NCBI GenBank assembly: GCA_949128025.1
Contig: CASBRD010000268.1
Span: 1 to 34,582 of the forward strand
Direction: 5' to 3'
Source of the DNA: Oscillatoriales cyanobacterium PMM_0008
GTDB taxonomy: Bacteria > Cyanobacteriota > Cyanobacteriia > Cyanobacteriales > Aerosakkonemataceae
DNA: 34,582 bases
The translations under genes were made by a program, and so were the position numbers. Each line of letters opens with the position of its first letter. Positions within the stretch are counted from its first letter, which is position 1. The notes below the pieces were generated by a model. It was not told the origin of the DNA, ran no database searches, and worked only from the letters and a program-made list of their open reading frames with translations. Positions 149-33,866 of the stretch are shown here, one piece after another.

Positions 149-529
149 CTACTTAAAACCCAGAATCTCCATAGATTTTTCCAGCACTTCATCTGGATCG
201 AAAGGCTTGGTCATATATAAATCCGCACCCACATCATTCCCTTTTTGTTTATCAAACTCCTGCCCTTTTGCCGTCAGCATGATGATATAAACATCCCGCA
301 TTCCCAGATCTTTTTTGACAGCCCTACAAACCTCAAAACCGCTCATTTTAGGCATCATCACATCCAAGAAGACAAGTTGAGGTTTTTCTCTTTTGATAGT
401 TTCAAGGGCTTTTTCGCCGTTTTCTGCCATCAGTAATTCCACACCTTCGTCTTCCAGTTCCTCTAGAGTTTGTTCCATCAGAACTCTAATGTGAGGTTCA
501 TCATCAACAATCAATACCTTTTTAGTCAT
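149..529 (-). CDS. Single-domain response regulator (CheY-like receiver)
   Basis: A 126-residue protein consisting only of a receiver domain. It would accept a phosphoryl group from a histidine kinase and signal by protein contact, since it has no output domain. The acidic pocket DDEPH is near the N-terminus, the phospho-acceptor Asp is in LVFLDVMMPKMSG, the Thr is in IIMLTAKG and the conserved Lys is in MTKPFDPDE, so all catalytic residues are present. It is the last gene of a minus-strand run of three histidine kinases and starts 45 bases after the permease-kinase stop. It is therefore probably a diffusible target of one of them, which is inference from position. No strong Shine-Dalgarno is visible before the ATG. 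Confidence 0.93.
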   Translation of the reverse strand: MTKKVLIVDDEPHIRVLMEQTLEELEDEGVELLMAENGEKALETIKREKPQLVFLDVMMPKMSGFEVCRAVKKDLGMRDVYIIMLTAKGQEFDKQKGNDVGADLYMTKPFDPDEVLEKSMEILGFK

Positions 530-574: not shown

Positions 575-3500
575 TTAATTTTCTCCATCTGCCAATACAA
601 AAAACACATTTTCCATTCCCTTTTCAAAACGCAAGGTTTTAACCAAATTGTGCTGTTCTAAAAACACCGAGTCTACAATTATCATATCAGGTTTTAGTGC
701 CAATGCCTTTTCGATGCACTCTGGGCCAGTAGATGCCTCTACAACGCTGTATCCCTTGGCTTGCAATACTTCCGACAAAGTTTTTAGATTTGAAGCATTT
801 TCATCCACAACGAGAACTTTCTTTTTAGACGTTCCCTGAGACAACAGTACATCAATATCTTTCAGTAGTTCTTCTGCGTTTATTGGCTTTTTCAAATAGC
901 GGTCAATGCCCAAGCGATAACCTCTCTGTTTATCTTCCACGATCGATAAAATAATTATCGGGATGCCCATACTCTGGGGGTCGCTTTTCAGCACTGCTGC
1001 CACATCAAATCCATTGATTTGGGGCATCATCACATCTAGGATAATTAGGTCTGGTTTTTCTTGTTTAACTTGGCTAATGGCATCCACCCCATCTATTGCC
1101 TCATTGACTTGATGGTTCTGTGCTTCTAGTTGCTGTCGGAGCAAGTTGCGAATGTGGGTATCATCATCGACAACGAGGATCTTTTTGCGATCGTCTGCTG
1201 TATTAGAGGCTGTTTGTATAATACTTTGTTTGAGTTGCCTGACGAGGATATCGATGTTGATTTTTGCTATGTCAGTTAGGTGCGTACTAGCGATCGGTAG
1301 GGCGAATGAGAAGTTACTACCTATGCCTAGTTGGCTTTCTACCCAAATTTTACCGCCATGATGTTCTACTATTTGCTTGGAGATGGGCAATCCCAGTCCG
1401 GTACCTTTGGGTTTATCTGTGAGGGTGTCTCCAACTTGTTTAAATTTTTCAAATACTTTTTGTTGGTCATCTGGGGCAATCCCGACCCCGGTATCGATGA
1501 GGCTCACAATGATTTCCTCGTGGCGCTGAATTGCTCGACAAGTTATAGAACCTTTATCGGTGAATTTAACAGCGTTGGAAATGAGATTGATTAAGACTTG
1601 GAGCAACCGATCGCTATCGCCCATCACTTGAGGCAATCCATCTTGGATATCCTGGATAGGCTCAAGCCCATTTTGTTCAAATAAAGACGATGTGGCTGCG
1701 AACGCCCGCTCAACAAGATCTGGCACAGAAACAGCCTGCATTTGCCAATCTACCTTACCAGCTTCCATCTTGGCAATATCTAGAACATCATTGATCAAGG
1801 ATGTCAGTCGCTCACCCTCAGATACGATGATGTTCATATTTTCTGTCACTTGTCTGATGGTTTTTTGAGTTTTGCGCTCCTCAGATTGGATTAAGGGGAA
1901 TATCCCTTCTTCGAGTTTTTTCTGAATCAGTTTAGCAAAACCGATTACTGAAGTTAGGGGCGTCCGCAGTTCGTGGGAAACAGTAGAAATAAAATCGGTC
2001 TTCATCCGGTCAATTTCTTTTTCTGCGGTGATATCTCGAAGCAGGATAACCGAGCCGATACAGTTATAACTTTGATTTTCTGATGACTGGGAGTTTTTCA
2101 GGATTGCAGTAGCCACTGCTTTGCCAGAGCGATTATTTGTAAGGTTTATCTCTGCTGCAAATACCTCTTGGGGCTGTTTGATAGTCTGCGCGACTAGGTT
2201 TCCTATCTCGCTACCAAACACTGTCTTGCAGTCTTGACCGATCGCATCTGTTTTTATAATACCAAACATGGGTAGCAAGGCGAGATTCAATCGGGCGATC
2301 TTGCCTTCTGTATCTGTTACTAAGAGACCATCTGCCAGGTTATCTATGATAGCAGTCAGGTAGGCATTGGCCTGTTGGAGGGCTGCTTCGGAAAGCTTGC
2401 GATCGGTGATATCCCGCAGGATGGCAATATATTCTTGGTATTTGAGATTTTTTCTGTGTGAGATCGTGGCATCAATCGTGCGGACAGACTGGGAAATGTC
2501 GGTCTCTACATTACTTTGGGTTAGCGTCTGTTCGCTTCTGTTTGGCCAATCCTCCGGATCGTTACCCAACCCGAAAAGGAACTCGTTGAGGCGATGACCG
2601 ACCAGATAATTGGTATTCATCCCCAAGAGTGCAACAGAAGCAGGGTTGGCTTGATAAATTACACCGTTTTCATCCAGCACTAGAACGGGATCGAGAGCGG
2701 TAATAAATAAACTTTCAGCGTGTTCCCGCGCCTCGTCAATGGCAGCAATCTGGGGTAGGCTCGTCCAGCAGGCGATCGCGATCGCGACAAAGGCGACTGT
2801 CATCAGCAACACGACCAAGAGATTGTTGCCAGCATTTTCAGAGATCCGCTCTAAGTTATCCCTCATCTCCCAGCCTATTGTGGTAGCGCCACAAACTAAT
2901 ACGATCAGGACGATCACCTGGAATGCCACAAAATCTTCGATCTGGCGGCTTCTTGTCCGCACACGCCTAAGCCACCAAGCTGGATGGAAGGGGGCATAAG
3001 GGATGCGACGGATAGCCTCATCGATAACGAAAATAGCGAGAGGAAGCAAAAGCCCGATTAGCACGTCTTGCCAGCCCCAGGCGAAGCCTGCCATCACGAG
3101 GACGATCGCCTCTACTATCAAGAAACCCAGAGACCACCAAGGCCATCTGACTTCCGGCCTGCCTCGGCGCAGCCAAAGTCCCAGATGGAGAGCCATTATA
3201 GACAACAGGTAACCTGCACAACCCACCGCCACAAGACCGGCTACATCTCCCCAAATCAGACCGAGCAGATTCACTAAAACGCAAAATATCAGAGCAGGTT
3301 GCAAGACCCCTGCCTTTGAGACGATGGCGAAGACAGGTGAAAGGTATCCGTCTAGGGAGAGTTGGTACAAAATGCGAGGTGAGTTGGAAACCGCAGTGGC
3401 GGAAGACAGAAGACAGCCTGAGACCAGCAGGAGTGTGACGATAAATGAAGCCTGGTGACCCCAAAATGGCTGGGCAGCCGCTAACAGGTTCAGGAAAGGG

Positions 3501-4345
3501 TTGTCGCCAAGTCCAGGTTCTGTAGCTAACCGCATGAGAACCCAGCTGCTACCCAAGTACACAACAGGAATTAGCCCAGCGGCAAAGGTGAGAAATTGCA
3601 AAGTGTTACGGGGTCGTCGGCTGTCGGCGACAAACGAGGAAGCAGTTTCGCAGGCGTAAGGCCCGTAGATTGCGAAGAACGACCACTTCGCCCAATCAAC
3701 AAATGTTGGGGGCGACCAGCTGGTGGGTAAAAGTCCGGGACTGGTTGGCGAAAAGGTTAACCATCCGATGCCTTGAAAGGAAAATATCAGTAAAAATCCT
3801 ATGGCCGGAAGAATGAAGGATGTGTGTAGTATCCCCAAGGCGCGGGTGCCACTAAACGCCACGATGTAGGGGATGAGGGTGAATCCAATTTTTAGAATGG
3901 TTTCGGGACAAGCAATGCCGAAGGGTTCGAGGTTGACCTTGATTAGGTCTGTGAGGATGATGGCGTTTACTGCCGGATACATTGCCCAGGCGTAGAAGTA
4001 GGCCAATGCTGCATAGCGACCCACACTGGGATAGTTCCTCAGTAGCCTGGTTGTATAGTTGGGCGTTCCTCCTGACATCTCTGGCCACTGTTCCCCTAAG
4101 CGTTTCACCTGGAGGTTTAGCAGCATTCCCACAATTACTGCGGGCAACCACACAAAGATGGCTTGTGGCCCAAGCGCTGTGTGCATCGCAGGAGCAATGG
4201 CAGTCCATGAGATAAGACTTGCGAGACCGAAGCCCCAGGTTTCTAGGTAGCTCAGGCTCCGGGGAAGGCGCATGAGCGATCGCGTAGCGTGTTGCGAAGC
4301 AAGGTATTGCTGATTCACTGACAAATTATTATTAGTTTCAGGCAT
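575..4345 (-). CDS. Amino acid permease-hybrid histidine kinase fusion (APC-PAS-PAS-HisKA-HATPase-REC-pseudoREC)
   Basis: A 1256-residue hybrid sensor kinase whose input region is a transporter. Residues 1-445 are a polytopic APC-superfamily amino-acid permease-like domain (N-terminal LSYLETWGFGLASL, SGGTPNYTTR and YGPYACETASSF segments). Two more hydrophobic helices lie near 472-492 and 508-528. PAS domains follow at about 543-655 and 660-775. HisKA has phospho-His791 in HELRTPLTSV, and HATPase has the N box LINLISNAVKF, DTGVGIAP and GTGLGLPIS. REC1 (1054-1173) has acceptor Asp1104. The last receiver (1174-1256) keeps Asp1225 but stops after strand 4, without the Lys/strand-5 half. The membrane region probably senses, and may transport, an amino acid or related solute, as the SLC5 domain does in CbrA; the ligand is unknown. 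Residues 660-1256 parallel the C-terminus of the upstream kinase. No close Shine-Dalgarno is visible. Confidence 0.9.
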   Translation of the reverse strand: MPETNNNLSVNQQYLASQHATRSLMRLPRSLSYLETWGFGLASLISWTAIAPAMHTALGPQAIFVWLPAVIVGMLLNLQVKRLGEQWPEMSGGTPNYTTRLLRNYPSVGRYAALAYFYAWAMYPAVNAIILTDLIKVNLEPFGIACPETILKIGFTLIPYIVAFSGTRALGILHTSFILPAIGFLLIFSFQGIGWLTFSPTSPGLLPTSWSPPTFVDWAKWSFFAIYGPYACETASSFVADSRRPRNTLQFLTFAAGLIPVVYLGSSWVLMRLATEPGLGDNPFLNLLAAAQPFWGHQASFIVTLLLVSGCLLSSATAVSNSPRILYQLSLDGYLSPVFAIVSKAGVLQPALIFCVLVNLLGLIWGDVAGLVAVGCAGYLLSIMALHLGLWLRRGRPEVRWPWWSLGFLIVEAIVLVMAGFAWGWQDVLIGLLLPLAIFVIDEAIRRIPYAPFHPAWWLRRVRTRSRQIEDFVAFQVIVLIVLVCGATTIGWEMRDNLERISENAGNNLLVVLLMTVAFVAIAIACWTSLPQIAAIDEAREHAESLFITALDPVLVLDENGVIYQANPASVALLGMNTNYLVGHRLNEFLFGLGNDPEDWPNRSEQTLTQSNVETDISQSVRTIDATISHRKNLKYQEYIAILRDITDRKLSEAALQQANAYLTAIIDNLADGLLVTDTEGKIARLNLALLPMFGIIKTDAIGQDCKTVFGSEIGNLVAQTIKQPQEVFAAEINLTNNRSGKAVATAILKNSQSSENQSYNCIGSVILLRDITAEKEIDRMKTDFISTVSHELRTPLTSVIGFAKLIQKKLEEGIFPLIQSEERKTQKTIRQVTENMNIIVSEGERLTSLINDVLDIAKMEAGKVDWQMQAVSVPDLVERAFAATSSLFEQNGLEPIQDIQDGLPQVMGDSDRLLQVLINLISNAVKFTDKGSITCRAIQRHEEIIVSLIDTGVGIAPDDQQKVFEKFKQVGDTLTDKPKGTGLGLPISKQIVEHHGGKIWVESQLGIGSNFSFALPIASTHLTDIAKINIDILVRQLKQSIIQTASNTADDRKKILVVDDDTHIRNLLRQQLEAQNHQVNEAIDGVDAISQVKQEKPDLIILDVMMPQINGFDVAAVLKSDPQSMGIPIIILSIVEDKQRGYRLGIDRYLKKPINAEELLKDIDVLLSQGTSKKKVLVVDENASNLKTLSEVLQAKGYSVVEASTGPECIEKALALKPDMIIVDSVFLEQHNLVKTLRFEKGMENVFFVLADGEN

Positions 4346-4508: not shown

Positions 4509-7500
4509 TTATTTAAGCTCTGCTAGTAAGACAAAAAAGACATTTTCCAGTCCCTTTTCAAATTTCAATAACTTGACAAGATCGTGTTGTTCGGAAACTA
4601 CGGAATTGACTATAATCATATCAGGCTTTACTGATAACGCCTTCTCAATGCACTCTTGTCCGTTAGACGCCTCGACAACACTGTATCCCTTCGCTTGCAA
4701 CACATCAGAAACACTTTTCACGACTGAGGCATCTTCATCCACTACTAAAACTTTCTTTTTCGATGTTCCTTGAGAGAGCAACAATCCAATATTATTAAGC
4801 AGGTCTTCTGCATTAACAGGCTTAGTAAAATAGCGGTCTATTCCCAGTCGATACTCCCTCTGTTTATCCTCGATGATTGACAATATGACGATGGGTATAC
4901 TCATCGTTTGGGGGTCATTTTTCAGCACGGCTGCTACATCAAAACCATTGATCTGAGGCATCATCACATCAAGGATAATTAAGTCTGGTCTGGCCGTTTT
5001 TACCTGGGTAATGGCATCCATTCCATCTTTAGCTTCTCTGACTTCATAACCTTCTGGTTCCAGTTGCTGTCTGAGTAATTGGCGAATGTTGGGATCATCA
5101 TCGACGACGAGAATTATTTTACCATGCTCGGATGCAGAGGGTGCTGCTTGTACCAAGCTTTCCTTCAATTGTCTAACCAAGATATCGATAGAAATTTTGT
5201 CTGTCTCCACATTGTTGCTGTTAGCGATCGGTAGACTGAATGAGAAATTACTTCCTTGTGTAAGTTGACTTTCCACCCATATTCTGCCACCATGATGTTC
5301 GACAATTTGTTTGCATATAGGTAGTCCTAAACCGCTTCCTTTGGGTTTGTCTGTGAGGGTATCACCCACCTGCTGAAATTTTTCAAATACCTTGTCTCGA
5401 TCCCCTGGGGCGATCCCAATGCCAGTATCGATGACGCTGATGACTATTTGGTTATTTTGTTGTTTTGCTTTCACAGTACAACTACCTGTTTCTGTGAATT
5501 TCATGGCATTGGAAATTAGATTAATTAAAACTTGGAGTAAGCGATCGCGATCGCCAATCACATCAGGTAATCCTTCTTCTACTTCTTTGTGTATGGCTAG
5601 TCCTCCGGCTTCAAATAAATTCGAGGTGGCTGCATAAGCTCGGTCAATTATGCTAGCGATCGAAGTAGGCTCCATCTGCCACTCTACCTTACCAGCCTCC
5701 ATCTTGGCGATATCGAGTACATCATTAATCAGGGTTGTCAGTCGTTCGCCTTCAGACACGATGATGTTGATATTGTCGCCCACTTGCTTGACAGTTTTTT
5801 GCGTTTTGCGATCGCTATCTGGCAGTAAGGGAAAGACCCCTTCCTCCAGTTTTTTCTTAATAATCTTGGCAAATCCCAGCACAGAAGTCAGAGGTGTCCG
5901 TAGTTCGTGGGAAACCGTAGAGATAAAATCCGTCTTCATCCGGTCAATTTCAATCTCGGTAGTGATATCCCGGATGACTATAACCGAACCTAGACATTCA
6001 TCGATCGCATCTTCCCCTGAAGTTAAGCCTCTGGAAATTGCAGTTGCCACAGCCTTGCCAACCCTACCTTTTGCTAGTTCTATCTCTGCGGTTAACACCT
6101 CCCTGGGAGATTTCAAAGTCATAGTTACCAGTTCTGTCATTTCACTGCTAAAGGTATCGTTACAGCTTTTACCAATCAGATTGCTACCTGAAAGATCGAA
6201 CTGAAGTAACAAAGATGGATTAAATCGAGAGATATTACCACGGGCATCCGTTACCAGCAGACCATCCGCAATATTGTTGATGATGGCGGTAAGATAAGCC
6301 ACGGTATTCTGGACTTCTTTGGCAGCTTGTGCTAGTTCGAGGGAGATAGCCGCCTGTCCTGAAAGCAGTCGCAAAACTTCCAGCCGCTCTGGTGTAAAAG
6401 CATCCGTTGTCAAATTGTTTTCCAGGTAAAAGATGCCGACTCGTTTTCCTTGATGAAGGATGGGAGCACACAAGAGAGACTTCGTTTGGTTATTTGTGAT
6501 ATAGGGGTCGCTGCTAAACATTCCCTCGCGAGCGGCATCTTTTAAAACGACACTTTTTTGAGTTCTTTCTACATAATTGATAATCGCCTGGGAAATATTC
6601 TCACTGGTTTCCACAGGAATATTTGGCAGTACTACACAATTTTCTTGCTCAACGCTCCCTGACGCAGCCAGCACTAATTTTCCCGATTTATCCAACAGGA
6701 GGATACCTTTCTGCGCGCCTGCATTTTCGATGAGAATGTGCGTCAACTTTGATAGCAAATTGTCGAGAACGATTTCCGAGGAAATCGCTTGTGATGCTTT
6801 GAGTACTGTCGCCAAATCCAGCGTATTCGCTCCCCATAAACTCGTAGAATTCGCTGTGTCTGTTACCTCTAGACCAGTTTTTTCTTGCTTCCTGATCTGG
6901 GATAATAACTGAGGATATCTTGCCTCTAAGTCTCTGACTTTTGCCTTTGCTCCCCAGCGGATATAGCCATAGTAGGCATCAGTTAGATATACTTGAGCAA
7001 CCTTATCTCTAGTGCGAGAGAAATAAAACTCAGATGTTAGTTCATTGGCGAGTGCTTCTTCTTGGATGTATCCTTGTTCACCAGATCCTTTGATGGCACG
7101 TTCATAATATTCCATTGCTAGGACATCTTGGTTCAACACTCGCGCTTTCTCTGCTTCTACTAAATCATACTTGTGTTGATAATTGGATGGAGCATGAGAC
7201 ATCCAGAGTTTCATTCTATTCTGATTTGATAATACTTTTTTGATATTTTTTACTTGTGCATCTTTTGAAACTGTAGGATATAAAGCCAGGATAGCTAAAG
7301 AATAATAAAAATTGGTTTCGGCGCTATACATCGTAGCTAGTCCGCCACCTGCGTATTTTTCTGCTAAGGAGGCATTTTCAGCAGACTGAGTATAATCCTT
7401 AAACAAATAAAAGAGTATAGATTTAGCAATATAGATAGGATAAATCAACATATAATTATTGCTTTTAATCAAAGATGGTAGCATTTCATCTTCATTAAAA

Positions 7501-10500
7501 CTTTCACCAATCAAGCGGCATTTACCAGGAGATTTATCCAATAAATTCAACACCATTTGTCTACATATACTTGCATAGTTACTCTGAAATTCCTGTTTTA
7601 GCTTTTGCATCATCCCAATATATTTTGTCTGCTTATCAGCTACAATCTCTAGATTTTCGCCTACAAAAAATATGTGGGTACAATAGAAACAAGCCCCATA
7701 ACAAGCATATTCTACATCACCAATTTCTAGCCCAGCTTGAATTCCTTCAATAAACGCTTCTAGGGTGTTCCTAGCTGGCTCTTTCCAGTGTCTAATAAAA
7801 TTGTTAAATGTCTCATAGATTTTAGCTTTGGCTTCTTGGGCATTGAATTGCTCCAACAGCTTCAAACCCAGTTGGCCAAATTGATAACCAGAATCTATAT
7901 CTCCGAACGCCCCAATCAGAAGCATACCATAAAGAGTATAGGCGTAAGCCGATAAGGGGGAATTTCCATATTTCAAACAGAGGTTAGTAAATTTAAATAC
8001 AACTAGAGGATAAAGCTCAGGAGCTACTATATAAACGGGAGGAATAAGATTAATTAAGATCCGTAGTGCCGCTATTTTATAGGGATCAGTCATTTCTGGC
8101 AGTTCAGCTAAATCCTCTATTCTCTTTGTTCCCAAGTTAAATTTTGTGTGAATAAGTCCTAACAAAATATTTATTTTTCTGGGTTTTTTGGGTAAGAATA
8201 CTCCCAGTAGTCTCAGAACTTGCAGTGCAGTATCTAAGGCTAATTGCATTTCATTTTGAGCAATATAAAATTGCATTCTTATCTCATATATCTTAACTTT
8301 ATCAAGTAATTTTTTAGCCTGCTCAATAATTTTTTCTGAAATAATTTTTGCCTGTTCAAAGTTGGTGTTTAAATATTCTGCTGCCGCTATCTCCACATGG
8401 ATTGCGAGTGTTAGGTCATAGTGATTTTGCCAGCTGGATTCGGTGAGGAGTCCTAGACCCAATGATAAATACTTGACAGCCGCTTGATAAGCTGTAGCTG
8501 TCTTCGCTTTCCGACCTGCAACTAGGTTTAATTGAGCTAGCTGATATCTTTCTTCCTCCAAAGGGATAAATTCAGCACCAACATTCAGTTGATTTACAAT
8601 TTCAAAGATGTTCTCTTCAATCTCTGTTTCTGGGGTATTTTTCAGCAGCAGTTGACCAATTTTCAGGTGAGTTTCTTTTTTATGATCTTCAGGAATCAAA
8701 GAATAAGCTGCTTGCTGCACCCGGTCATGGAGAAATTTGTAGGAAATTTTAGTAATTGGTAATTGGTAGGATTGTTCATTTTCCATTGTCGATGACCAAT
8801 TACTCATTCCGACTAGGGGAATTTTATATGCCTCACTGAGAGGCAGAATCAGACCCTCCTGAAGGGCATCCCACAAATCAGCCGCCGTTTCTGATTCAGA
8901 TTTTTCATTTACAATCGCTAGAACATCTAAATTAAATCTATCGCCAATACAGGCGGCTAATTTTAATACCTGCTGAGTTTGTGCAGGCAATTTTTGAATA
9001 TTTCTGGCAATTAGTTCGACGACATTATAATCCGTAATCCCAATGGTTTGAATTTGCTTGATGTCACACTGCCAACAACCGGAACTAAAGTCAAATGTCA
9101 ACAGCTTTTCACGGTGAAGGGTAGAGAGCAATTGCGTCAAGAAGAAAGGATTACCTTGGGTTTTATTGAAACCTAATTCGGCTAGGGGCAAAGACTTTTG
9201 TGTTTCATCGTGAAGGGTATCGGCAACTAATTGACTGACGTTGCCAATATCCAAAGGCTGGAGGATGATATTATTAACGATTGCCCCGAATGATTCAATT
9301 TCTTCCAAGGTCTGCATCAACGGATGAGTCGGACTGACCTCATTATCTCGATACGCTCCAATTAGTAATAGATATTGGCTATCGGGGTCAGTCACAAGTA
9401 ACTGAATCAACTTCAAAGATGCCGAATCCGCCCACTGTAAGTCATCTAGAAAAACGACCAACGGGTGTTCTGGTTTAGTAAATACATGAATGAACTGTTG
9501 AAATACCCGATTAAATCGATTTTGTGATTCTGATGGCCCCAATTGAGGAACATCTGGCTGAAAACCAATAATTAGTTCGACTTCGGGAATAACATTAATG
9601 ATGACAGAGCCATTGGAACCGAGTGCTTCTAATAGTTTGGTTTTCCAAATAGCTATTTTTTCTGAACTTTCTGTTAACAGTTGCCGCATCAATTCCTGGA
9701 ATGCTTGAATCATTGAAGCATAAGGAATATTCCGCTTAAACTGGTCAAATTTGCCAGCGATAAAATAACCCCGCTGCCGGACTATGGGTTTATGAACTTC
9801 ATTAACTACTGAGGTTTTACCAATCCCTGAGTAGCCACTGACAAGCATCATCTCACTCTTTCCTTGACTAACTCGGTCAAAGGCATCCAGCAGTGTATGC
9901 ACTTCCGCGTCGCGCCCATAGAGTTTTTGCGGGATCAGAAAAGAGCCAGATTTATCCCGTTTACCGATTGAAAAGTCAGAAATCTTGCCAGTTGATTGCA
10001 GTTGATTCAGACAGGTTTCTAAATCGACTTTTAGTCCTAAAGCGCTTTGGTAACGGTCTTCAGCGGTTTTGGATAGTAACTTCATTACTATCGAAGAAAT
10101 TGCGCCGGTCATCTCTGCATTCAGTTGGTCAGGCGACACTGGTTGTTTGGCTATATGACAGTGAACTAATTCTAGAGGGTCGGTGGCATTAAAGGGCAAT
10201 TGTCCCGTCAGCATTTCATAGAATGTTACTCCTAATGAATAGAAGTCGGTGCGGTAGTCAATCGACCGATTCATTCTCCCTGTCTGTTCTGGTGATATAT
10301 AGGCTAGGGTTCCTTCTAATAAATTGGTATTGCTGATTCCTGTCTCTCTAGACAGGCGCGAAGCTATGCTAAAGTCGATAATTTTAACTTGGCCTGTAGA
10401 GGGGTTGATCAGGATATTTTGGGGTTTAATATCTTTATGTATAATCTGATTTTGATGCAACTGAGCTAGGGTTGAAGCTAGCTGAATGCCGATTCTGAGG

Positions 10501-10814
10501 AAGAGAATTAATTCAATTTTCTGAGTACCTAAAAAATCTTTGAGGGATTGTCCTAAAAAGTCTTCTAATATGAGTGCTAGACTGTTATGATAGTTTTCTA
10601 AGGCGTAGGGTTTAATAATTCCTTCAATCTCCAATTTTTGGAGGATTTTATATTCATGTCTGAGTCGGGTGATTTGTTCGAGGGTGGGATAATCGGCTAG
10701 GAGGGTTTTAATAATCACCGATGTTTGAGACTGTTCTCTTACTCCTCGATAGATAAGAGTATTGAGACCAGCTTGAATTTGTTCGGTGATTCTGTAACCT
10801 GGAATGGAAATCAT
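4509..10814 (-). CDS. HstK-like dual kinase: Ser/Thr kinase-AAA ATPase-helical repeat-GAF-PAS-histidine kinase-REC-pseudoREC
   Basis: A 2101-residue cytoplasmic multi-sensor protein. The Ser/Thr kinase domain (about 1-270) has Lys36, catalytic HKD (126-128) instead of HRD, Asn133 and DFS (147-149) instead of DFG. Next come an AAA/NACHT-like ATPase with Walker A GYSGIGKTS (327-335) and Walker B LVVFLDDLQWAD, a long alpha-helical TPR-like region, GAF (about 1220-1370), PAS from about 1503, HisKA with His1636, HATPase with GSGLGLPIC, and REC1 (1898-2018) with Asp1949. The final receiver (2019-2101) is cut short and has Asn2070 where the acceptor Asp belongs. Cyanobacterial HstK-type proteins couple Ser/Thr and His phosphorylation, but the signal is unknown. 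I chose this start because AGGAGA lies eight bases upstream and the next residues match the family (ISIPGYRITEQ). The frame runs 29 codons further upstream, overlapping the preceding gene, without a better start. Confidence 0.93.
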   Translation of the reverse strand: MISIPGYRITEQIQAGLNTLIYRGVREQSQTSVIIKTLLADYPTLEQITRLRHEYKILQKLEIEGIIKPYALENYHNSLALILEDFLGQSLKDFLGTQKIELILFLRIGIQLASTLAQLHQNQIIHKDIKPQNILINPSTGQVKIIDFSIASRLSRETGISNTNLLEGTLAYISPEQTGRMNRSIDYRTDFYSLGVTFYEMLTGQLPFNATDPLELVHCHIAKQPVSPDQLNAEMTGAISSIVMKLLSKTAEDRYQSALGLKVDLETCLNQLQSTGKISDFSIGKRDKSGSFLIPQKLYGRDAEVHTLLDAFDRVSQGKSEMMLVSGYSGIGKTSVVNEVHKPIVRQRGYFIAGKFDQFKRNIPYASMIQAFQELMRQLLTESSEKIAIWKTKLLEALGSNGSVIINVIPEVELIIGFQPDVPQLGPSESQNRFNRVFQQFIHVFTKPEHPLVVFLDDLQWADSASLKLIQLLVTDPDSQYLLLIGAYRDNEVSPTHPLMQTLEEIESFGAIVNNIILQPLDIGNVSQLVADTLHDETQKSLPLAELGFNKTQGNPFFLTQLLSTLHREKLLTFDFSSGCWQCDIKQIQTIGITDYNVVELIARNIQKLPAQTQQVLKLAACIGDRFNLDVLAIVNEKSESETAADLWDALQEGLILPLSEAYKIPLVGMSNWSSTMENEQSYQLPITKISYKFLHDRVQQAAYSLIPEDHKKETHLKIGQLLLKNTPETEIEENIFEIVNQLNVGAEFIPLEEERYQLAQLNLVAGRKAKTATAYQAAVKYLSLGLGLLTESSWQNHYDLTLAIHVEIAAAEYLNTNFEQAKIISEKIIEQAKKLLDKVKIYEIRMQFYIAQNEMQLALDTALQVLRLLGVFLPKKPRKINILLGLIHTKFNLGTKRIEDLAELPEMTDPYKIAALRILINLIPPVYIVAPELYPLVVFKFTNLCLKYGNSPLSAYAYTLYGMLLIGAFGDIDSGYQFGQLGLKLLEQFNAQEAKAKIYETFNNFIRHWKEPARNTLEAFIEGIQAGLEIGDVEYACYGACFYCTHIFFVGENLEIVADKQTKYIGMMQKLKQEFQSNYASICRQMVLNLLDKSPGKCRLIGESFNEDEMLPSLIKSNNYMLIYPIYIAKSILFYLFKDYTQSAENASLAEKYAGGGLATMYSAETNFYYSLAILALYPTVSKDAQVKNIKKVLSNQNRMKLWMSHAPSNYQHKYDLVEAEKARVLNQDVLAMEYYERAIKGSGEQGYIQEEALANELTSEFYFSRTRDKVAQVYLTDAYYGYIRWGAKAKVRDLEARYPQLLSQIRKQEKTGLEVTDTANSTSLWGANTLDLATVLKASQAISSEIVLDNLLSKLTHILIENAGAQKGILLLDKSGKLVLAASGSVEQENCVVLPNIPVETSENISQAIINYVERTQKSVVLKDAAREGMFSSDPYITNNQTKSLLCAPILHQGKRVGIFYLENNLTTDAFTPERLEVLRLLSGQAAISLELAQAAKEVQNTVAYLTAIINNIADGLLVTDARGNISRFNPSLLLQFDLSGSNLIGKSCNDTFSSEMTELVTMTLKSPREVLTAEIELAKGRVGKAVATAISRGLTSGEDAIDECLGSVIVIRDITTEIEIDRMKTDFISTVSHELRTPLTSVLGFAKIIKKKLEEGVFPLLPDSDRKTQKTVKQVGDNINIIVSEGERLTTLINDVLDIAKMEAGKVEWQMEPTSIASIIDRAYAATSNLFEAGGLAIHKEVEEGLPDVIGDRDRLLQVLINLISNAMKFTETGSCTVKAKQQNNQIVISVIDTGIGIAPGDRDKVFEKFQQVGDTLTDKPKGSGLGLPICKQIVEHHGGRIWVESQLTQGSNFSFSLPIANSNNVETDKISIDILVRQLKESLVQAAPSASEHGKIILVVDDDPNIRQLLRQQLEPEGYEVREAKDGMDAITQVKTARPDLIILDVMMPQINGFDVAAVLKNDPQTMSIPIVILSIIEDKQREYRLGIDRYFTKPVNAEDLLNNIGLLLSQGTSKKKVLVVDEDASVVKSVSDVLQAKGYSVVEASNGQECIEKALSVKPDMIIVNSVVSEQHDLVKLLKFEKGLENVFFVLLAELK

Positions 10815-10894
10815 TCGTGTTCTCCTATCGCTTTGTGAGGTTATTTTAGTCTGGTATATTAATAACCAAAATTTGCAGAGTGTTCTACAAGTGG

Positions 10895-13249
10895 TTAACA
10901 ATATTGAGTTTGATGGCGGTATGTCTGCAAATTAGGAGTAAAATCAACCAGATGGTGATTGTTACTCTCAGGACGACTTAGTGCGATCGCTTTGAGGGGA
11001 ATCTGAATCAAAAACTCTGCACCCTGACCTGGTTCGGATATACACTTCAAAATGCCTCCATGTTTTTCCACGACAATCTGGTAGCTAATGGACAAACCTA
11101 GCCCTGTCCCTTTCCCTACTGGTTTGGTTGTATAGAAGGGGTCAAACAATCTCTTTTTGACCTCATCTGTCATTCCTGGGCCGTTGTCGCGAATGCGAAT
11201 CACAACAGCGTCCAGAGCGCGGACTACTTCAGTATGAATGGTAATCTGAGGTTGAGGTTGGTTTTCAAGGGCGTCGATCGCATTGCTGAGGACGTTCATG
11301 AAAACTTGGTTCAACTGACCGGGATAACACTCTACAAGCGGCAAGTCGCCATACTCTTGACTTGCTTGAATTGCAGGACGTTCTGTTGTCGATTTCAAGC
11401 GATGGTGCAATATCATGAGGGTGCTATCGATACCTTCGTGAATGTCCACTGGCTTCATCTCTGCTTGATCCAGACGGGAGAAGTTTCGCAGGGATAAGAC
11501 AATTTGACGGATGCGATCGACTCCCACTTGCATTGAGGATAGTATTTTGGGTAGGTCTTCAACCAGAAAGTCGAGTTCGATCGCTTCTAGGAGAGCTTGA
11601 ATTTCCGGTACTGGTTGCGGATAGTGCTTGCCATAAAGTTGGACAAGATCGAGTAAGCCGTGGGAATATTGATGGGCGTGGGAGAGGTTTCCGTAGATAA
11701 AATTGACGGGGTTGTTGATTTCGTGGGCTACACCGGCAACCATACAGCCAAGGCTGGACATTTTTTCGCTCTGAATCAGCTGGGATTGGGTTTGCTGTAA
11801 TTCGTGCAGAGTTTGCTGTAATTGTCGGGCTTGGGCTTGGGCTGTGGCGGCAGCAGTGGCAGCTTCGCGGTAAAGTTCTGCTTGATCGAGGGCGATCGCC
11901 AGTTGAGTAGCCACAGCCTGCAACAATTCTACTTCATGGTCGCTCCACGATCGCACTTCTGTACTGTGACCGCAGCTAATTACACCAATCGTTCCAGAAC
12001 GAGTCTGAATCGGTAGTGCGAATACAGAGCTAAATTCCCGATCGACGAAGAACTTTTGCATGACCGGATCGCTGACGGTGACGATATTATCTGCACAAAC
12101 TACTTCCATATCTAGAAGCTTCTGCGTAAACGAACCAACCTCTACAGCGGAGTAGTAACCCATTAAGCTCGGTAAATCTGGGTTTTTGGCTTCTTTGACA
12201 ACTTCCCAGCTAGCACAAGAACGATCGATGTACTCCGTAGGGATTTCCGAAGGATGAATGAAGTTTTCTGTTTTACTTTGGTTTTTTGACCTTGTTCGCT
12301 GGTTCTGGCTGGGAACTATTTTTCCTTCTTCCGGTCTATACCAGATGAATTGGCAGCGATCGATTTGCAGGAGACTGCGGATCTCGCTCACAGCTGTTTC
12401 TAAAATGGTATCGAGGTTCAGGGAATGACGGATTTGGCTTGCCAAACGAAAAAGCAAAGCTTCCCGGCGGCTTTCGCGCAGCTGGTTTTCATGGAGAAGG
12501 GCATTTTCAATGGCCGATCCGGCTTGAAATGCCAGCATGGTGAGCAGTTTCAGATCTGCTGCTGTATAATTGACTGGTGTCTTGCTGCTGATTTCGATCG
12601 CACCAATTACTTTATCTTTCGTCTTCAAAGGAACGCAAATTAGAGATCTTACTCGCTCTTGATTTTCTACATATCTGGGATCGGATAACACATCGTTGAC
12701 TATTTCTCCCGTTCCTCTTATAACTACGTTACCGATGATGCCTTCACCTAGTTTTAAGGTTGCTCTTGGCTGGCATTCTTTACCAAATGCCGAGATGACT
12801 TCAAGCCAGCCCGTGACTGGATGAACTAACACGATCGAGCCGCTGGTTGCTTCGAGCAGCTCCCTTGCTTCATCAAGAGATAATTTGGCAACTTCTTTTA
12901 GTTCTAAAGTAGCCGTTATCTTTTGCGAAATTTGATATAATACGGTGATTTCTCTATAGCGATCTAATAATTCGTTGGCAAGTGATTTCTTTTCTAGTTC
13001 TTTATTGGCTAAATAGGATATAAAAGCAGCTACAGTAGACGCTTTTTCTGACCCAATTACCCATCCGATCGTTTCTCCTGAAACTTCGATCGGACATCTA
13101 TTTAATTCATTCTCACTTGCCACTCCAAGCAGCGTATTGCCTTCGGCATCCCGAATGCTGATACTATTATCAATAGTATTTACAAGGTTGGCGATCGTCG
13201 ATGAACTTTCTTTTTTAGATAATAGCTTCTTGAGGCCGATTTGAATCAT
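10895..13249 (-). CDS. GAF-GAF sensor histidine kinase
   Basis: A 784-residue soluble kinase. The N-terminal 90 residues look like a small sensory module I cannot name. GAF1 is about 117-250 and GAF2 about 278-450. A Q/A-rich coiled-coil linker (455-495) leads to the dimerisation domain with phospho-His509 in AHEINNPVNF, of the 4-helix type that contains a long insertion. HATPase follows with NVLSNAIDAL, DNGPGM and GKGTGLGLSIS. There is no receiver, so it must signal to a separate regulator; candidates are the receivers encoded further along the same strand. It is the first gene of the run, its ATG is preceded by GAGGAAAGG about ten bases upstream, and 80 bases separate its stop from the next start. 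GAF ligands (bilin, cyclic nucleotide or other) cannot be read from sequence. I see no obvious Cys-His bilin-attachment motif. Confidence 0.92.
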   Translation of the reverse strand: MIQIGLKKLLSKKESSSTIANLVNTIDNSISIRDAEGNTLLGVASENELNRCPIEVSGETIGWVIGSEKASTVAAFISYLANKELEKKSLANELLDRYREITVLYQISQKITATLELKEVAKLSLDEARELLEATSGSIVLVHPVTGWLEVISAFGKECQPRATLKLGEGIIGNVVIRGTGEIVNDVLSDPRYVENQERVRSLICVPLKTKDKVIGAIEISSKTPVNYTAADLKLLTMLAFQAGSAIENALLHENQLRESRREALLFRLASQIRHSLNLDTILETAVSEIRSLLQIDRCQFIWYRPEEGKIVPSQNQRTRSKNQSKTENFIHPSEIPTEYIDRSCASWEVVKEAKNPDLPSLMGYYSAVEVGSFTQKLLDMEVVCADNIVTVSDPVMQKFFVDREFSSVFALPIQTRSGTIGVISCGHSTEVRSWSDHEVELLQAVATQLAIALDQAELYREAATAAATAQAQARQLQQTLHELQQTQSQLIQSEKMSSLGCMVAGVAHEINNPVNFIYGNLSHAHQYSHGLLDLVQLYGKHYPQPVPEIQALLEAIELDFLVEDLPKILSSMQVGVDRIRQIVLSLRNFSRLDQAEMKPVDIHEGIDSTLMILHHRLKSTTERPAIQASQEYGDLPLVECYPGQLNQVFMNVLSNAIDALENQPQPQITIHTEVVRALDAVVIRIRDNGPGMTDEVKKRLFDPFYTTKPVGKGTGLGLSISYQIVVEKHGGILKCISEPGQGAEFLIQIPLKAIALSRPESNNHHLVDFTPNLQTYRHQTQYC

Positions 13250-30120: not shown

Positions 30121-31839
30121 CTATCGCCGCCGCCACCAAAGCCATCCCGCCGTTCCAAATCCAATTAAAGGCAAAATTATTATACTTATCCAAAACAACA
30201 AGCTGGCTTGCGAAATAGTCATTTTGAGACGACGGTTGTTCGCCTGCTTAGGACGAATTGAAAGAGTTTGATTCTCCTGCTGACGCAACCAACTGACGGA
30301 GTTGAGAAACACATCTCCATTTAACTGCTGGCTAAATACGCCATCTGTGGCAAACTCAGAATTACCAAACACTACTAACCTAGCCATATCCGATCGTTTT
30401 TCTGACTTTTCATCCGATTTTAGATCTGTTTTTGCTGGTGACTCAGTAGGAGAAGGAGATGCCTTTGGACTTTGAGATGTCGTCGGTTTATCCGATGATT
30501 TATTTGGCGATGCAGCGGGAGATGGAGATGCGTCTGACTGCTTGACATCGGGGATGGATTCCACCTTGCGAGTGAAAGCAGCGCCCAAAATCAGTGGCCC
30601 TCTGCGATCGCTTTTTGGATCGAAAGTTAATTCCTTGTTTTCTAGATCGCTTTCTGCCCAGCTATCCTGGGAAGTAAACAGCAGCGGACTTGCCTCAACA
30701 CCTTTCACCGGCTGTATATCCAGCGGTCGTGCCAGCTGATAGAACGATATACTATTGCCAAAATCTTTCGTAATCGGATGATTTCCGTAGTCAGTCACTA
30801 CGGGAGTAGCGGGGCCCAATCCGATCAAACGCCCATCATCAGAGGCATCGACAGCAAAGCGGTTTTCCAACTTAACTCCCCATTCATCCAATAAACCTGT
30901 CAGTCCCGGATCTGTGTTAGGGTCGATCATCAGCAGCAAACTGCCACCTTGCTTGAGGTAATCCCGCAAAACATTCACTTCTTGAGCGAATAGGGGACGT
31001 TTTGGCCCTGCCACAACGATCGCCACAGCATCCCTGGGAACAGATGCGCGTTCTGCCAAGTTGAGCGATTTACTGGTAAAGTTTTTCTGCTCCAGATATT
31101 TCATCGCCTCAGACAAACCTTCTTTGACAGACTCCATCGGACGTTCGCCGTGACCTTGCAGGAAGTAGACTGTGGAAATGCGATCGAGAGTGAAAATCTT
31201 TTCTATGCTACTGGTCAGCTTTTCTTCCGAAAGCCGCTCATCCTGATTGACTTTTTGGATAAACTTTCGCTGTTCACCATATTCTAGGTAAGCTTCGCCT
31301 CTTTCCTTGACATTAAACTTCCTAGCCAGTCCGGGGTTAGTATTTGGCTCAACATACTCAAAGCTAAACTTCGATCCCTGACGCCGATAATTCTGCAATA
31401 ATTCCTGGTCTTGGGGATTCGGATTTCGATCGAATATCCACACCTTTACTGGTTGCGTTAAATTCCGCGCCACCTCCTGGGACTGGGGCGAAAGGGTAAA
31501 CAGTTTATTATCCGTGAAGTCGATCCGCCCTGAATAGCGGACGCCCAAAAAGTTTACGATCGCCAAAATCATCACAGCTGCCACTGTCGCCGCCAAAGCA
31601 TTAGTTCCTGCTTGTGTGGAACGGCGTCCCCAAAAAGTTTGTGAAGCCGACGTTAAATCGCCGCTACCCTGAGTTAGCAGCCAAAACCCTAGAGCCACAA
31701 TCCCCAAAATTATCAGCGTTAGGGGTATGGGCACCCACTTATCCGATACCACTCCAGCGGATATGCCCATCACGATCAGGAATGGCCCGATCCACAACAG
31801 ATATTTCCAATATTTACCGCTGAATTTGAATGTTTTCAT
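30121..31839 (-). CDS. GldG-like ABC transporter auxiliary protein
   Basis: A 572-residue membrane protein matching the GldG/ABC-auxiliary family. Membrane helices lie at about 13-31, 36-56 and 83-103. A large extracytoplasmic domain starts RIDFTDNKLFTLSPQSQEV and contains the IAVVAGPK-like Rossmann segment (AIVVAGPKRPL) and GGSLLLMIDPNTDPG. A final helix near 545-567 ends in WWRRR. A Ser/Pro/Lys-rich insert (about 435-485) precedes the RLVVFGNSEFATDG block. In Bacteroidetes GldG works with GldA and GldF in gliding; in cyanobacteria the cargo is unknown. It is third in the operon, 80 bases after the permease gene. Confidence 0.86.
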   Translation of the reverse strand: MKTFKFSGKYWKYLLWIGPFLIVMGISAGVVSDKWVPIPLTLIILGIVALGFWLLTQGSGDLTSASQTFWGRRSTQAGTNALAATVAAVMILAIVNFLGVRYSGRIDFTDNKLFTLSPQSQEVARNLTQPVKVWIFDRNPNPQDQELLQNYRRQGSKFSFEYVEPNTNPGLARKFNVKERGEAYLEYGEQRKFIQKVNQDERLSEEKLTSSIEKIFTLDRISTVYFLQGHGERPMESVKEGLSEAMKYLEQKNFTSKSLNLAERASVPRDAVAIVVAGPKRPLFAQEVNVLRDYLKQGGSLLLMIDPNTDPGLTGLLDEWGVKLENRFAVDASDDGRLIGLGPATPVVTDYGNHPITKDFGNSISFYQLARPLDIQPVKGVEASPLLFTSQDSWAESDLENKELTFDPKSDRRGPLILGAAFTRKVESIPDVKQSDASPSPAASPNKSSDKPTTSQSPKASPSPTESPAKTDLKSDEKSEKRSDMARLVVFGNSEFATDGVFSQQLNGDVFLNSVSWLRQQENQTLSIRPKQANNRRLKMTISQASLLFWISIIILPLIGFGTAGWLWWRRR

Positions 31840-31860
31840 AAATTGCTAATTGCAGATTTG

Positions 31861-31904
31861 AGATTTCAGATTGCAGATTGAATTCAAGTTGAAATCTGAA
31901 ATCT
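31861..31904. repeat. AGATTTCAGATT...AATCTGAAATCT inverted repeat in operon gap
   Basis: Twelve-base perfect arms (31861-31872, 31893-31904) between the permease and GldG-like genes. It shares its core with the palindromes at 29064 and 30031. Confidence 0.75.
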
Positions 31905-31919
31905 TCAATTTGAAATTTC

Positions 31920-32714
31920 CTACGACCTTTGGAAACGGAAAGCATCGATCGACTGAGCGGTGAGAAACACTCCCAACACAATGAAGCTAGCAAAAAATAC
32001 CAAACTGCTAGTATCTAAAACCCCTTGCACTAGGTTGCTGTAATGTCTGAGCAACGATAAATAACCAAATACTGCGCCTACCACACCGCCAAACATTTGA
32101 CCGAACAAATCGATCGTCCACAGCAGCAATACTCCCACAAAAGTGAAGATTGCCGCCAGAACGGTACTATCGGTCAGGGAAGAAATAAACATCCCTAAAG
32201 ACAATACGCTAGCAGCCACCAGAATTAATCCTAAATGCCCCAATAACGGCACGACAAAAGGCACTGGGGAGTCAGATGCACTCAACGCGATCGCTTCATA
32301 CCCCAATACTGGCGTCACTATCGCCGTGAAAAACGTTACCACGCCTAACAACTTGCCCACTGCTACTGCCCAGTTAGTAATTGGCGACGTTGCCAACAAC
32401 TCCAGAGTACCGCGCTTGCGTTCTTCGGCATAAAGACCCATCGAAAGCATCGGCAATATAAACAAGGAAAATGAGCCCATCACGTTCAAAAATCCCTGCA
32501 ATACTCTGTAGGGGACATCAAACGGCGGTACAGTTCCTCCGTATTGTTGATCGACAATGGCGGCTTGGTTAATTTCTCCTAGCAGAATTGTCATAAAAAA
32601 GCAACCAGCTACAAACCAGAAGACAGCTGCGATCGCATACGCCAAGGGCGAAGCAAAATAGCTCAGCAACTCCTTGCGGTAGATAGCCATAATATTTGCC
32701 AGGATTATCCGCAT
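31920..32714 (-). CDS. ABC-2 type transporter permease (GldF-like)
   Basis: A 264-residue permease with about six membrane helices. The N-terminal IMAIYRKELLSYFASPLAY is the typical interface helix of ABC-2 exporters, and GLYAEERKRGTLELLATSPIT is the ATPase-coupling motif. The start codon follows the ATPase stop with no gap (TAAATG), so translation is probably coupled. It works with the ATPase and GldG-like protein encoded by its neighbours; the substrate is unknown. Confidence 0.9.
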   Translation of the reverse strand: MRIILANIMAIYRKELLSYFASPLAYAIAAVFWFVAGCFFMTILLGEINQAAIVDQQYGGTVPPFDVPYRVLQGFLNVMGSFSLFILPMLSMGLYAEERKRGTLELLATSPITNWAVAVGKLLGVVTFFTAIVTPVLGYEAIALSASDSPVPFVVPLLGHLGLILVAASVLSLGMFISSLTDSTVLAAIFTFVGVLLLWTIDLFGQMFGGVVGAVFGYLSLLRHYSNLVQGVLDTSSLVFFASFIVLGVFLTAQSIDAFRFQRS

Positions 32715-33866
32715 TTAAAGATCTCCTTCTTGCTCTTGGTTTTCGCCTTCTTCAAAAGAAGAGGGCTGGGACTCCCTAAGTGCTTCGTCTTTAGTGCTGA
32801 GTGCTGAGTGAGAATTCTCTTCTGCTCCTCTGCTCCTCTGCTCCTCTGCTCCTCTGCTCCTCTGCCCCTCTGCCCCTCTGCTCCTCTGCTCCTCTGCTCC
32901 TCTGCTCCAATCATCAGCGATCGCTTTTTCCGAGGTAGTCAGTTGCAGGAATACATCTTCTAGACTGGCTCGCGTGCGTCGCATTTCGCATAACCCCAAT
33001 CCAGATGAAACCAAAGCTGTCGCTATCTCCCGACCCGGTTCTGCTCCCGTTGCCGATACTATACGGTAAACAGACCGATTATCTCTGAGATGCTCCATCG
33101 CCATAGATTCTACCAAACGTATCCCCGGCACCGCTCTTAACCTTTCCAAGGCGGTCTCTGGATCTCCCTCTACCTCGACTTCATACCCCGATCCCTCAAC
33201 CAGACTAGCCTCAAGATTTTCCGGCGTATTAGTTACCACAATTTTGCCGCGATTGATGATTACCACGCGGCTACAAGTCATGCTGACTTCCGGCAAAATG
33301 TGAGTTGAAAGAATAATCGTGTGGCTACCGGCAAGACTCTTGATCAACTTTCGCATCTCGATAATTTGACGCGGATCGAGGCCAACCGTCGGCTCATCTA
33401 AAATAATTGCAGGCGGATCGTGAACTAGAGCCTGGGCAATTCCCACTCGCTGGCGAAACCCTTTGGAAAGCTTGCGGATCAGTACTTTGCGTTTTTCTTC
33501 CAGATTGCAACGTTTTAAGGCCGAGTTAACCGCAAGAGCGCGATCGCCCGCCGGTACTCCCTTAATCTGCGTCACAAAGTACAAAAATCCCTCCACCGTC
33601 ATTTCTGGATACAGGGGCGGCACCTCCGGCAAATAACCAATTCGCTGCCGAACTGCGATCGAATCCTCATGGACATCATACCCAGCAATACGAGCCGTGC
33701 CGCTGCTAGCCGGTAAGTACCCAGCCAAAATCCGCATCGTCGTCGTTTTCCCAGCTCCATTCGGCCCCAAAAACCCAACGATTTCCCCAGGCTCCACAGT
33801 AAAAGTTACATCTTGGATCGCTGGGGTCGAGCCGTAGATTTTGCTCAAATGCTCAACTTCAATCAT
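32715..33866 (-). CDS. ABC transporter ATP-binding protein (GldA/NatA-like) with repeat-encoded tail
   Basis: A 383-residue ATPase. Walker A is GPNGAGKTT (34-42), the signature LSKGFRQRV (133-141) and Walker B AIILDE (153-158), and VDxHIL-type HILPEVSM follows. A DUF4162-like C-domain runs to about residue 310. Residues 321-383 are foreign to the family: four SRGAEEQR-type octapeptides coded by an 8-bp microsatellite, then a tail of translated intergenic-type sequence (SHSALSTKDEALRES). The family normally ends near DVFLQLT. The tail might be a neutral read-through product. It is the first gene of the operon. Confidence 0.9.
   Translation of the reverse strand: MIEVEHLSKIYGSTPAIQDVTFTVEPGEIVGFLGPNGAGKTTTMRILAGYLPASSGTARIAGYDVHEDSIAVRQRIGYLPEVPPLYPEMTVEGFLYFVTQIKGVPAGDRALAVNSALKRCNLEEKRKVLIRKLSKGFRQRVGIAQALVHDPPAIILDEPTVGLDPRQIIEMRKLIKSLAGSHTIILSTHILPEVSMTCSRVVIINRGKIVVTNTPENLEASLVEGSGYEVEVEGDPETALERLRAVPGIRLVESMAMEHLRDNRSVYRIVSATGAEPGREIATALVSSGLGLCEMRRTRASLEDVFLQLTTSEKAIADDWSRGAEEQRSRGAEGQRSRGAEEQRSRGAEENSHSALSTKDEALRESQPSSFEEGENQEQEGDL
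32822..32908. repeat. 8-bp microsatellite CTGCTCCT, about 10.9 copies
   Basis: Ten full copies plus seven bases of CTGCTCCT (two copies read CTGCCCCT), inside the 3' end of the ABC ATPase gene. Read on the minus strand (AGGAGCAG) it is open in the coding frame and in at least one other. Three units make 24 bases, giving an eight-residue peptide period. Confidence 0.95.

Follow-up and report, generated by a model that had tools for sequence, protein, structure and literature searches.

A putative transporter-derived receptor in cyanobacteria: an APC-type permease joined by a two-helix coupler to differing signalling outputs

The window analysed here is a stretch of 34,582 bp from Oscillatoriales cyanobacterium PMM_0008 (positions 1 to 34,582 of contig CASBRD010000268.1, assembly GCA_949128025.1). 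Its minus strand carries at 575-4345 one ATG-started frame of 1256 aa with zero internal stops, in which an APC-type permease domain is followed by two extra helices, two PAS domains and a hybrid histidine kinase. We consider it probable, from sequence comparisons, that the product senses a small amine or amino acid as a modular receptor derived from a transporter, with a portable input module and, in this window, a kinase that has been replaced by a cassette. The gene and its domains are as follows.

575..4345 (-): putative permease-sensor hybrid histidine kinase, 1256 aa; intact open reading frame with a full-length ortholog, 81% identical, in genome G388
2963..4345 (-): APC-type permease domain, residues 1-461 (family members match PF00324/PF13520; hhalign; LysP 9eyd)
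2726..2962 (-): linker with two extra helices, residues 462-540 (conservation, hydropathy, coupler profile)
2402..2704 (-): PAS 1, related to the PAS domains of other members (Pfam PAS_9, 552-648)
2036..2383 (-): PAS 2, limits approximate, start of the replaced kinase cassette (Pfam PAS_8, 662-706; cassette match from residue 650)
1757..2005 (-): HisKA with phospho-acceptor His791 in SHELRTP (Pfam HisKA, 781-863; motif position)
1292..1621 (-): HATPase_c, residues 909-1018 (Pfam; GTGLGL at 981)
854..1180 (-): receiver domain 1, probable acceptor Asp1104 (Pfam Response_reg, 1056-1164, the best stretch; motif DVMMPQING)
578..826 (-): receiver domain 2, short, probably vestigial, start approximate (second Response_reg stretch)

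The C-terminal part has the make-up of a hybrid histidine kinase, with a HisKA domain containing its acceptor histidine, a HATPase_c domain and a C-terminal receiver (Pfam and motifs). Receiver domains normally carry a conserved lysine; the second one here, as read from the sequence, stops with the protein at residue 1256, short of that position, and is probably truncated and vestigial. Hydropathy places two strong hydrophobic helices past the permease, at 472-490 and 509-527, and the linker ends in a conserved ACWTSLPQ-type motif (residues ~525-532). The count of twelve helices for the APC core is borrowed from the APC family, as they are not all resolved by simple hydropathy. An earlier reading of this DNA, made without database searches (the sequence-only reading), had proposed that two extra helices connect an APC-type permease to a hybrid kinase, and profile homology, hydropathy and Pfam domains agree with it.

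Scanned alone, the window protein matched no Pfam permease model at E ≤ 10 and, by phmmer, no chain in the PDB at E ≤ 1, so that the permease label is settled by its homologues. Among the modules of 49 family members, including the window, AA_permease (PF00324) was matched at E ≤ 10 by 35 (best 1.9e-13) and AA_permease_2 (PF13520) by six (best 3.8e-20); the corresponding numbers for full-length proteins at E ≤ 0.001 are 29/49 and 2/49. Five of eight members scanned singly (L050, L046, L061, L039 and L057) lie above the PF00324 gathering score, and the remaining three (L112, L122 and L004) gave no permease match. A profile of the 49 modules aligns with a seven-member APC permease alignment at a probability of 98.9 and an E-value of 1.7e-17 (hhalign), and its best match among solved structures is LysP 9eyd (E 3e-6, profile positions 45-342), the only credible one of two structure matches. 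The NCBIfam model that matches most modules, TMAO permease NF053774 (44/49, best E 1.2e-15), does so far below its cut-off, with 36.6 bits against 690 for the window module. The nearest stand-alone relative within the window's genome (G000:C218) reaches 545.9 of these 690 bits and also ranks first in hhalign among seven single partners. Taken together, these comparisons indicate that the APC homology of the membrane domain is real but distant. One scan of viral contigs gave zero relatives, and plasmids gave three weak APC matches of 25-30% identity.

The permease part was used as the query in genome samples from the cyanobacterial phylum. In a phylum-wide sample of 386 genomes 40 matched, and after leaving out five with short pieces only (G022, G300, G334, G371 and G385) there are 46 full-length places in 35 genomes; one other family has 61 in 47 of 145 genomes, and the window's own family 11 in seven of ten. 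Removal of overlaps leaves 99 distinct full-length places across the three samples. The open frame at each is 732 aa or longer, which leaves room for a fused output, and no stand-alone family member was seen among the full-length places of the 386-, 145- and 10-genome samples; places whose sequence was not fetched would, judged by frame length, be fused as well. The 79 complete modules that were collected (the 49 and 30 more, covering part of the 61 second-family matches and including three named loci) are all fused when read, and the order proposed from the sequence alone, with a signalling output past the permease, recurs in all 49 full-length members including the window (HisKA in 43, GGDEF-EAL in six). 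Named relatives belong to Microcoleaceae, Microcoleus and Stenomitos, and a single contig scan with six short peptide patterns, weak on other phyla, returned three loci, all cyanobacterial. Five rows of the 386- and 10-genome searches had a reported stop inside the match (G129:C6, G045, G033, G101 and G393); the loci fetched for them contain intact open reading frames of 819-959 aa. Broken fragments of the family also occur (e.g. G030:C55, G300, G385 and G167). The shortest member (L114:7047-9242, 731 aa) ends just past HisKA with a 231-aa gene 13 nt downstream, and may be truncated or frameshifted.

A coupler profile was built from residues 462-545 of 20 members and run on 194 genomes, with at most 28 candidates scored per genome. 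It gave 32 strong matches in 22 genomes, of which 31 are at full-length modules; the other, at G030:C55, has its permease mostly gone and keeps a 503-aa kinase frame. A weak match in G038 (E 0.005) is probably due to chance. The ACWTSLPQ-type end of helix 14 is among the most conserved stretches, with A525, T528, L530 and Q532 invariant or nearly so in the 79 modules, and it is alike before PAS kinases, PAS-less kinases and GGDEF-EAL outputs; this motif may be the coupling element.

Classified by motif, the outputs of the 79 genes comprise PAS-HEINNP kinases (36), GGDEF-EAL pairs (15), HEIRNP kinases (10), HELRTP-receiver (REC) kinases (8), HEINNP kinases without PAS (7), the window type (2) and L046, which falls in no motif class and is a PAS-HisKA kinase by Pfam. 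A quick tree of the 79 modules requires at least 10 output changes (the minimum possible with seven labels is 6), a soft count, as several of the labels are distinguished solely by kinase subtype or PAS and several branches are long. The GGDEF-EAL members form one clade with a support of 100. Because relatives couple the same module to other kinases or to the GGDEF-EAL pair, the module is best described as a putative portable input device. In seven of eight HEIRNP loci (L004, L037, L038, L052, L113, L115 and L117; in L005 the contig ends first) a CheY-like regulator of ~123 aa overlaps the kinase gene or lies within 23 nt of it, which supports a phosphorelay. Locus L037:52-12745 contains three tandem permease-kinase genes, followed by a CheY-like regulator and two REC-kinase cluster genes. 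A possible second type of fused APC protein (G118:C1, L152:7742-10360; 872-aa frame) was set aside, as judged by eye it has a different-looking permease and a long stretch without a visible kinase motif. Neighbouring genes of Crp, ParA and thymidylate-kinase type were also dropped as evidence, recurring mainly among close relatives.

Around the fusion gene lie three further genes on the same strand.

149..529 (-): single-domain CheY-like response regulator, 46 nt downstream of the fusion gene (Pfam Response_reg, 1.1e-28; same neighbour in G388)
4509..10901 (-): Ser/Thr kinase-AAA-GAF-PAS-HisKA-HATPase-REC-REC protein, upstream (Pfam; kinase half sister to that of the fusion protein)
10895..13249 (-): GAF-GAF histidine kinase, 784 aa, first of a conserved four-gene run (Pfam; same order in G388)

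A second species of the genus (G388, locus L112) carries an ortholog of 1265 aa, which agrees with the window protein in its signalling domains and in 81% of 1262 aligned positions; it also shares with the window the order of 784-aa kinase, ~2.1-kaa Ser/Thr-His kinase, fusion gene and 126-aa regulator. The regulator at 149-529 is likely the phosphorelay partner of the fusion kinase. A frameshift or misassembly had been named as what might produce such a fusion, and the likeness of the kinase half to the adjacent gene could provoke misjoining; the existence of the G388 ortholog within the same four-gene order refutes this, the DNA of the two kinase halves differs by 26%, and the chance of a chimeric contig or frameshift artefact is negligible. 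Ratios of nonsynonymous to synonymous substitution (dN/dS, NG86) between window and G388 are 0.23 for the permease, 0.20 for the linker, 0.11 for PAS1, 0.28 for PAS2, 0.19 for HisKA-HATPase and 0.16 for the receivers, and both permease and linker are under purifying selection. Between window 575-4345 and L112:13800-17597 dS is ~0.84 for the permease and falls along the gene to 0.23 for the receivers, suggesting that the C-terminal part has undergone recombination or gene conversion. Elsewhere in the window, at 30121-33866, is an ABC-2 type export run of ATPase, membrane protein and ABC_transp_aux protein.

The two halves of the fusion protein have different affinities. Over 604 aa, residues 650-1251 share 67.6% identity with the C-terminal half of the protein encoded upstream, with 73.9% DNA identity over 1474 nt, and the only other close copy of the cassette in the genome is on C250 (67%; next best 38%). 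PAS1 (541-660) is about 33-54% identical to the PAS domains of other members among the matches listed, and the kinase part ~20-36% identical to their kinases over stretches of at least 130 aa, likewise among the matches listed. In the module tree the window and G388 group with four HEIRNP kinases (support 98). As PAS1 resembles that of relatives, the kinase resembles that of the upstream gene and the module falls among HEIRNP kinases, we read the input half as native and the output half as a cassette shared with the neighbour. On these comparisons the native kinase has been replaced in the window's lineage by a cassette also present in the upstream gene, the cassette having presumably been copied into the fusion gene.

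Pocket positions were mapped by profile alignment onto Pseudomonas aeruginosa LysP, for which a TM3 (transmembrane helix 3) gate Trp105, a TM6 gate Phe215, a coupling Lys162 and a contact Glu112 are described (PMC12764776); TM1 is the least certain part of the alignment. Trp105 corresponds to W120, kept in 79/79 modules, and Phe215 to Y227, which is aromatic in 78/79 and Ile in L046. Position 233, aligned with the TM6 acid of LysP, is acidic throughout (Glu in 75, Asp in 4) and Y230 is kept in 72/79. The TM5 proton-coupling lysine of LysP, K162, falls at Pro180 in 79/79, so the family is not of the LysP symporter type at this position. GxG is absent from TM1 positions 41-50 in 79/79, W47 is present in 77/79, and a GFG common at 38-40 (G38 67/79, G40 69/79) is aligned ahead of the LysP GTG. 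The pocket W, Y, Y and E are common to the module and its nearest stand-alone permease, which also is without the TM1 motif, as is PuuP; absence of the motif is therefore not by itself a loss of function, and TM1 glycine loss was dropped as a mark of conversion to a receptor. The sequence-only reading had named loss of substrate-pocket residues in homologues as counting against it, and here the picture is mixed, with W120, the aromatic at 227, Y230 and E/D233 kept and the TM1 GxG and LysP coupling lysine absent; the pocket appears to be partly retained, and the usual TM1 carboxylate binding is unlikely. Position 127, at most one residue from the LysP contact Glu112, is Asn in 56 modules and Tyr in 18, with Tyr in 14 of the 15 GGDEF-EAL members, a split that hints at a different ligand in the latter.

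A candidate ligand for the GGDEF-EAL clade is suggested by its neighbour. The next gene, oriented tail-to-tail, encodes a histidine decarboxylase (at L050 it scores 522.6 bits on NF002748, whose cut-off is 305), and this is so in 12 of 15 GGDEF-EAL genes (with a 254-256-aa gene between at L054, L127 and L128). Two of the remaining genomes have the decarboxylase elsewhere (G474 and G493) and one has none over the cut-off (G436). A more divergent decarboxylase (420.9 bits) lies 146 nt from a kinase-type member of another genus (L122, G427), again in tail-to-tail orientation. In the 386-genome sample six of eight decarboxylase genomes have the module, in all six adjacent or one gene away; in the other family 26 of 145 genomes have a decarboxylase over the cut-off. 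Co-occurrence across genomes gives Fisher p-values of 9e-6 (386 genomes) and 9e-4 (145), both computed post hoc and ignoring relatedness. Antiporters of the AdiC/GadC kind next to histidine decarboxylases are a pairing described previously (PMC8465708). The lead is weakened in that the module is missing from ten of the 26 decarboxylase genomes and lies on a different contig from the decarboxylase in G416, that only three genera (g16, g52 and g55) account for the 12 linked genes, and that L122 has Asn, not Tyr, at 127. Histidine or histamine is accordingly a best first guess for the ligand of the GGDEF-EAL clade alone, and the linkage points to a concrete first candidate.

By analogy with Ks-Amt5 and CbrA we propose that the N-terminal 14 helices, the APC permease and the two-helix coupler, would act as a receptor descended from a transporter. 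The solute bound would be small, most likely an amine or amino acid, and its binding at a central site between TM1, TM3 and TM6 would bias the outward or inward state of the APC core. Helices 13-14 and, at the inner face of the membrane, the ACWTSLPQ-type motif would relay the change to PAS1 and the HisKA dimer, altering autophosphorylation of His791, from which phosphate would move to Asp1104 in cis and then to the CheY-like regulator (126 aa) of the adjacent gene. Several observations weigh against this proposal. AlphaFold2 on the membrane module with four sequences reached a predicted local distance difference test score (pLDDT) of just 38.6, for which reason the APC fold rests on profile homology. 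An acidic residue at 233 is common in ordinary APC permeases and so is no mark of a receptor, and a transporter would be just as likely to keep the aromatics found here. The actual sensing could be done by the PAS domains, and a decarboxylase over the cut-off was found in none of the ten genomes of the window's own family. We nonetheless favor the receptor; the broader formulation, in which the permease and coupler serve cyanobacteria as an exchangeable amine or amino-acid receptor for two-component and cyclic di-GMP (c-di-GMP) signalling and one lineage has become specialized for histidine or histamine (substrate or product of the neighbouring decarboxylase), is about as probable as its converse.

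The most serious alternative, possible and yet clearly less probable than a receptor, is a true transceptor of the kind proposed for CbrA: substrate would still be transported by the permease, with flux or occupancy signalled by the kinase. Retention of the TM3 and TM6 gating aromatics, purifying selection on the core and the presence of the same W, Y, Y and E in the nearest stand-alone permease would suit it, whereas the change of LysP K162 to Pro180, the lack of GxG at TM1 41-50 and the failure to find a stand-alone family member in the three genome searches would not; the missing lysine weakens symport only, since AdiC and PotE are also without it. If instead the permease were a membrane anchor or vestige and the PAS domains sensed an internal signal, the presence of PAS in most members (PF00989 in 38/49) would be accounted for, as would two genes (G030:C55 and G470:C1; L153:7221-9191 and L080:9377-10888) that are without the first permease part and keep the later helices, the coupler and an open kinase frame. 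However, nine kinases (the seven HEINNP ones, L006 and L075) have their HisKA motif ~30-60 residues past the membrane part, with no room for PAS (checked by Pfam in L039), and keep the module, as does the GGDEF-EAL member L057 without PAS; mean column identity of 62% across 49 modules and a dN/dS of 0.23 are also stricter than expected of an anchor, which we regard as unlikely. Signalling in the reverse direction, with the kinase part regulating the permease as a self-regulated transporter, is compatible with a sequence that does not fix direction and is still more doubtful, given that response-regulator genes adjoin several members and that the outputs include c-di-GMP enzymes.

With a transporter-derived receptor as the preferred interpretation, the sequence-only reading is supported in part: its architecture holds, and the fusion might read amino-acid or polyamine supply from a transporter's conformation. 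The breadth of the family, its apparently exchangeable outputs including c-di-GMP enzymes and the replaced kinase half extend beyond that reading. Many cyanobacteria appear to have turned an amino-acid or amine transporter into a sensor by permanent fusion to signalling enzymes, and about a hundred genes in the sampled genomes, with one input module and several outputs, offer natural swap experiments on how a transporter fold signals to a kinase or cyclase. Transporter-kinase fusions have been described as rare with reference to CbrA (PMC13022988), and a literature search limited to open-licence PMC found no published description of an APC-kinase fusion.

Several known systems are comparable. 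In the SLC5-STAC kinases CbrA, CrbS and RpuS a transporter domain is fused to PAS and histidine kinase domains, and they are proposed transceptors (PMC13022988, PMC9100948). The window protein likewise has a membrane transporter domain in one chain with PAS and histidine kinase domains, but CbrA-type proteins have an SLC5 domain of 13 helices and a soluble four-helix STAC linker in place of an APC domain and a two-helix membrane coupler, and relatives of the window protein also have GGDEF-EAL outputs. The distinction from the SLC5 domain of CbrA drawn earlier stands, as no SLC5 or STAC family is among the Pfam and NCBIfam matches shown here. The transporter domain of the ammonium sensor Ks-Amt5 no longer transports and instead passes a signal to the HisKA kinase fused to it (PMC5764959); here too a transporter domain would be the receptor for a HisKA kinase, but Ks-Amt5 has the Amt fold and neither PAS nor STAC, and its loss of transport was measured. 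LysP, an APC permease, interacts with the membrane regulator CadC and feeds it lysine availability (PMC12764776); these are two separate proteins with no kinase, E. coli LysP keeps the TM1 GTG, and LysP has K162. Kinases with the 5TMR/S-component fold also combine a transporter-type fold modularly with PAS, GGDEF, EAL and kinase outputs (PMC11109136), the fold being that of an ECF S-component, not APC, and the TMAO-permease-like APC transporters (NF053774), although theirs is the NCBIfam model that most modules match, are a stand-alone family. The window protein would therefore work in the manner of the known transporter-kinase fusions while belonging, by sequence, to neither the SLC5-STAC nor the Amt type.

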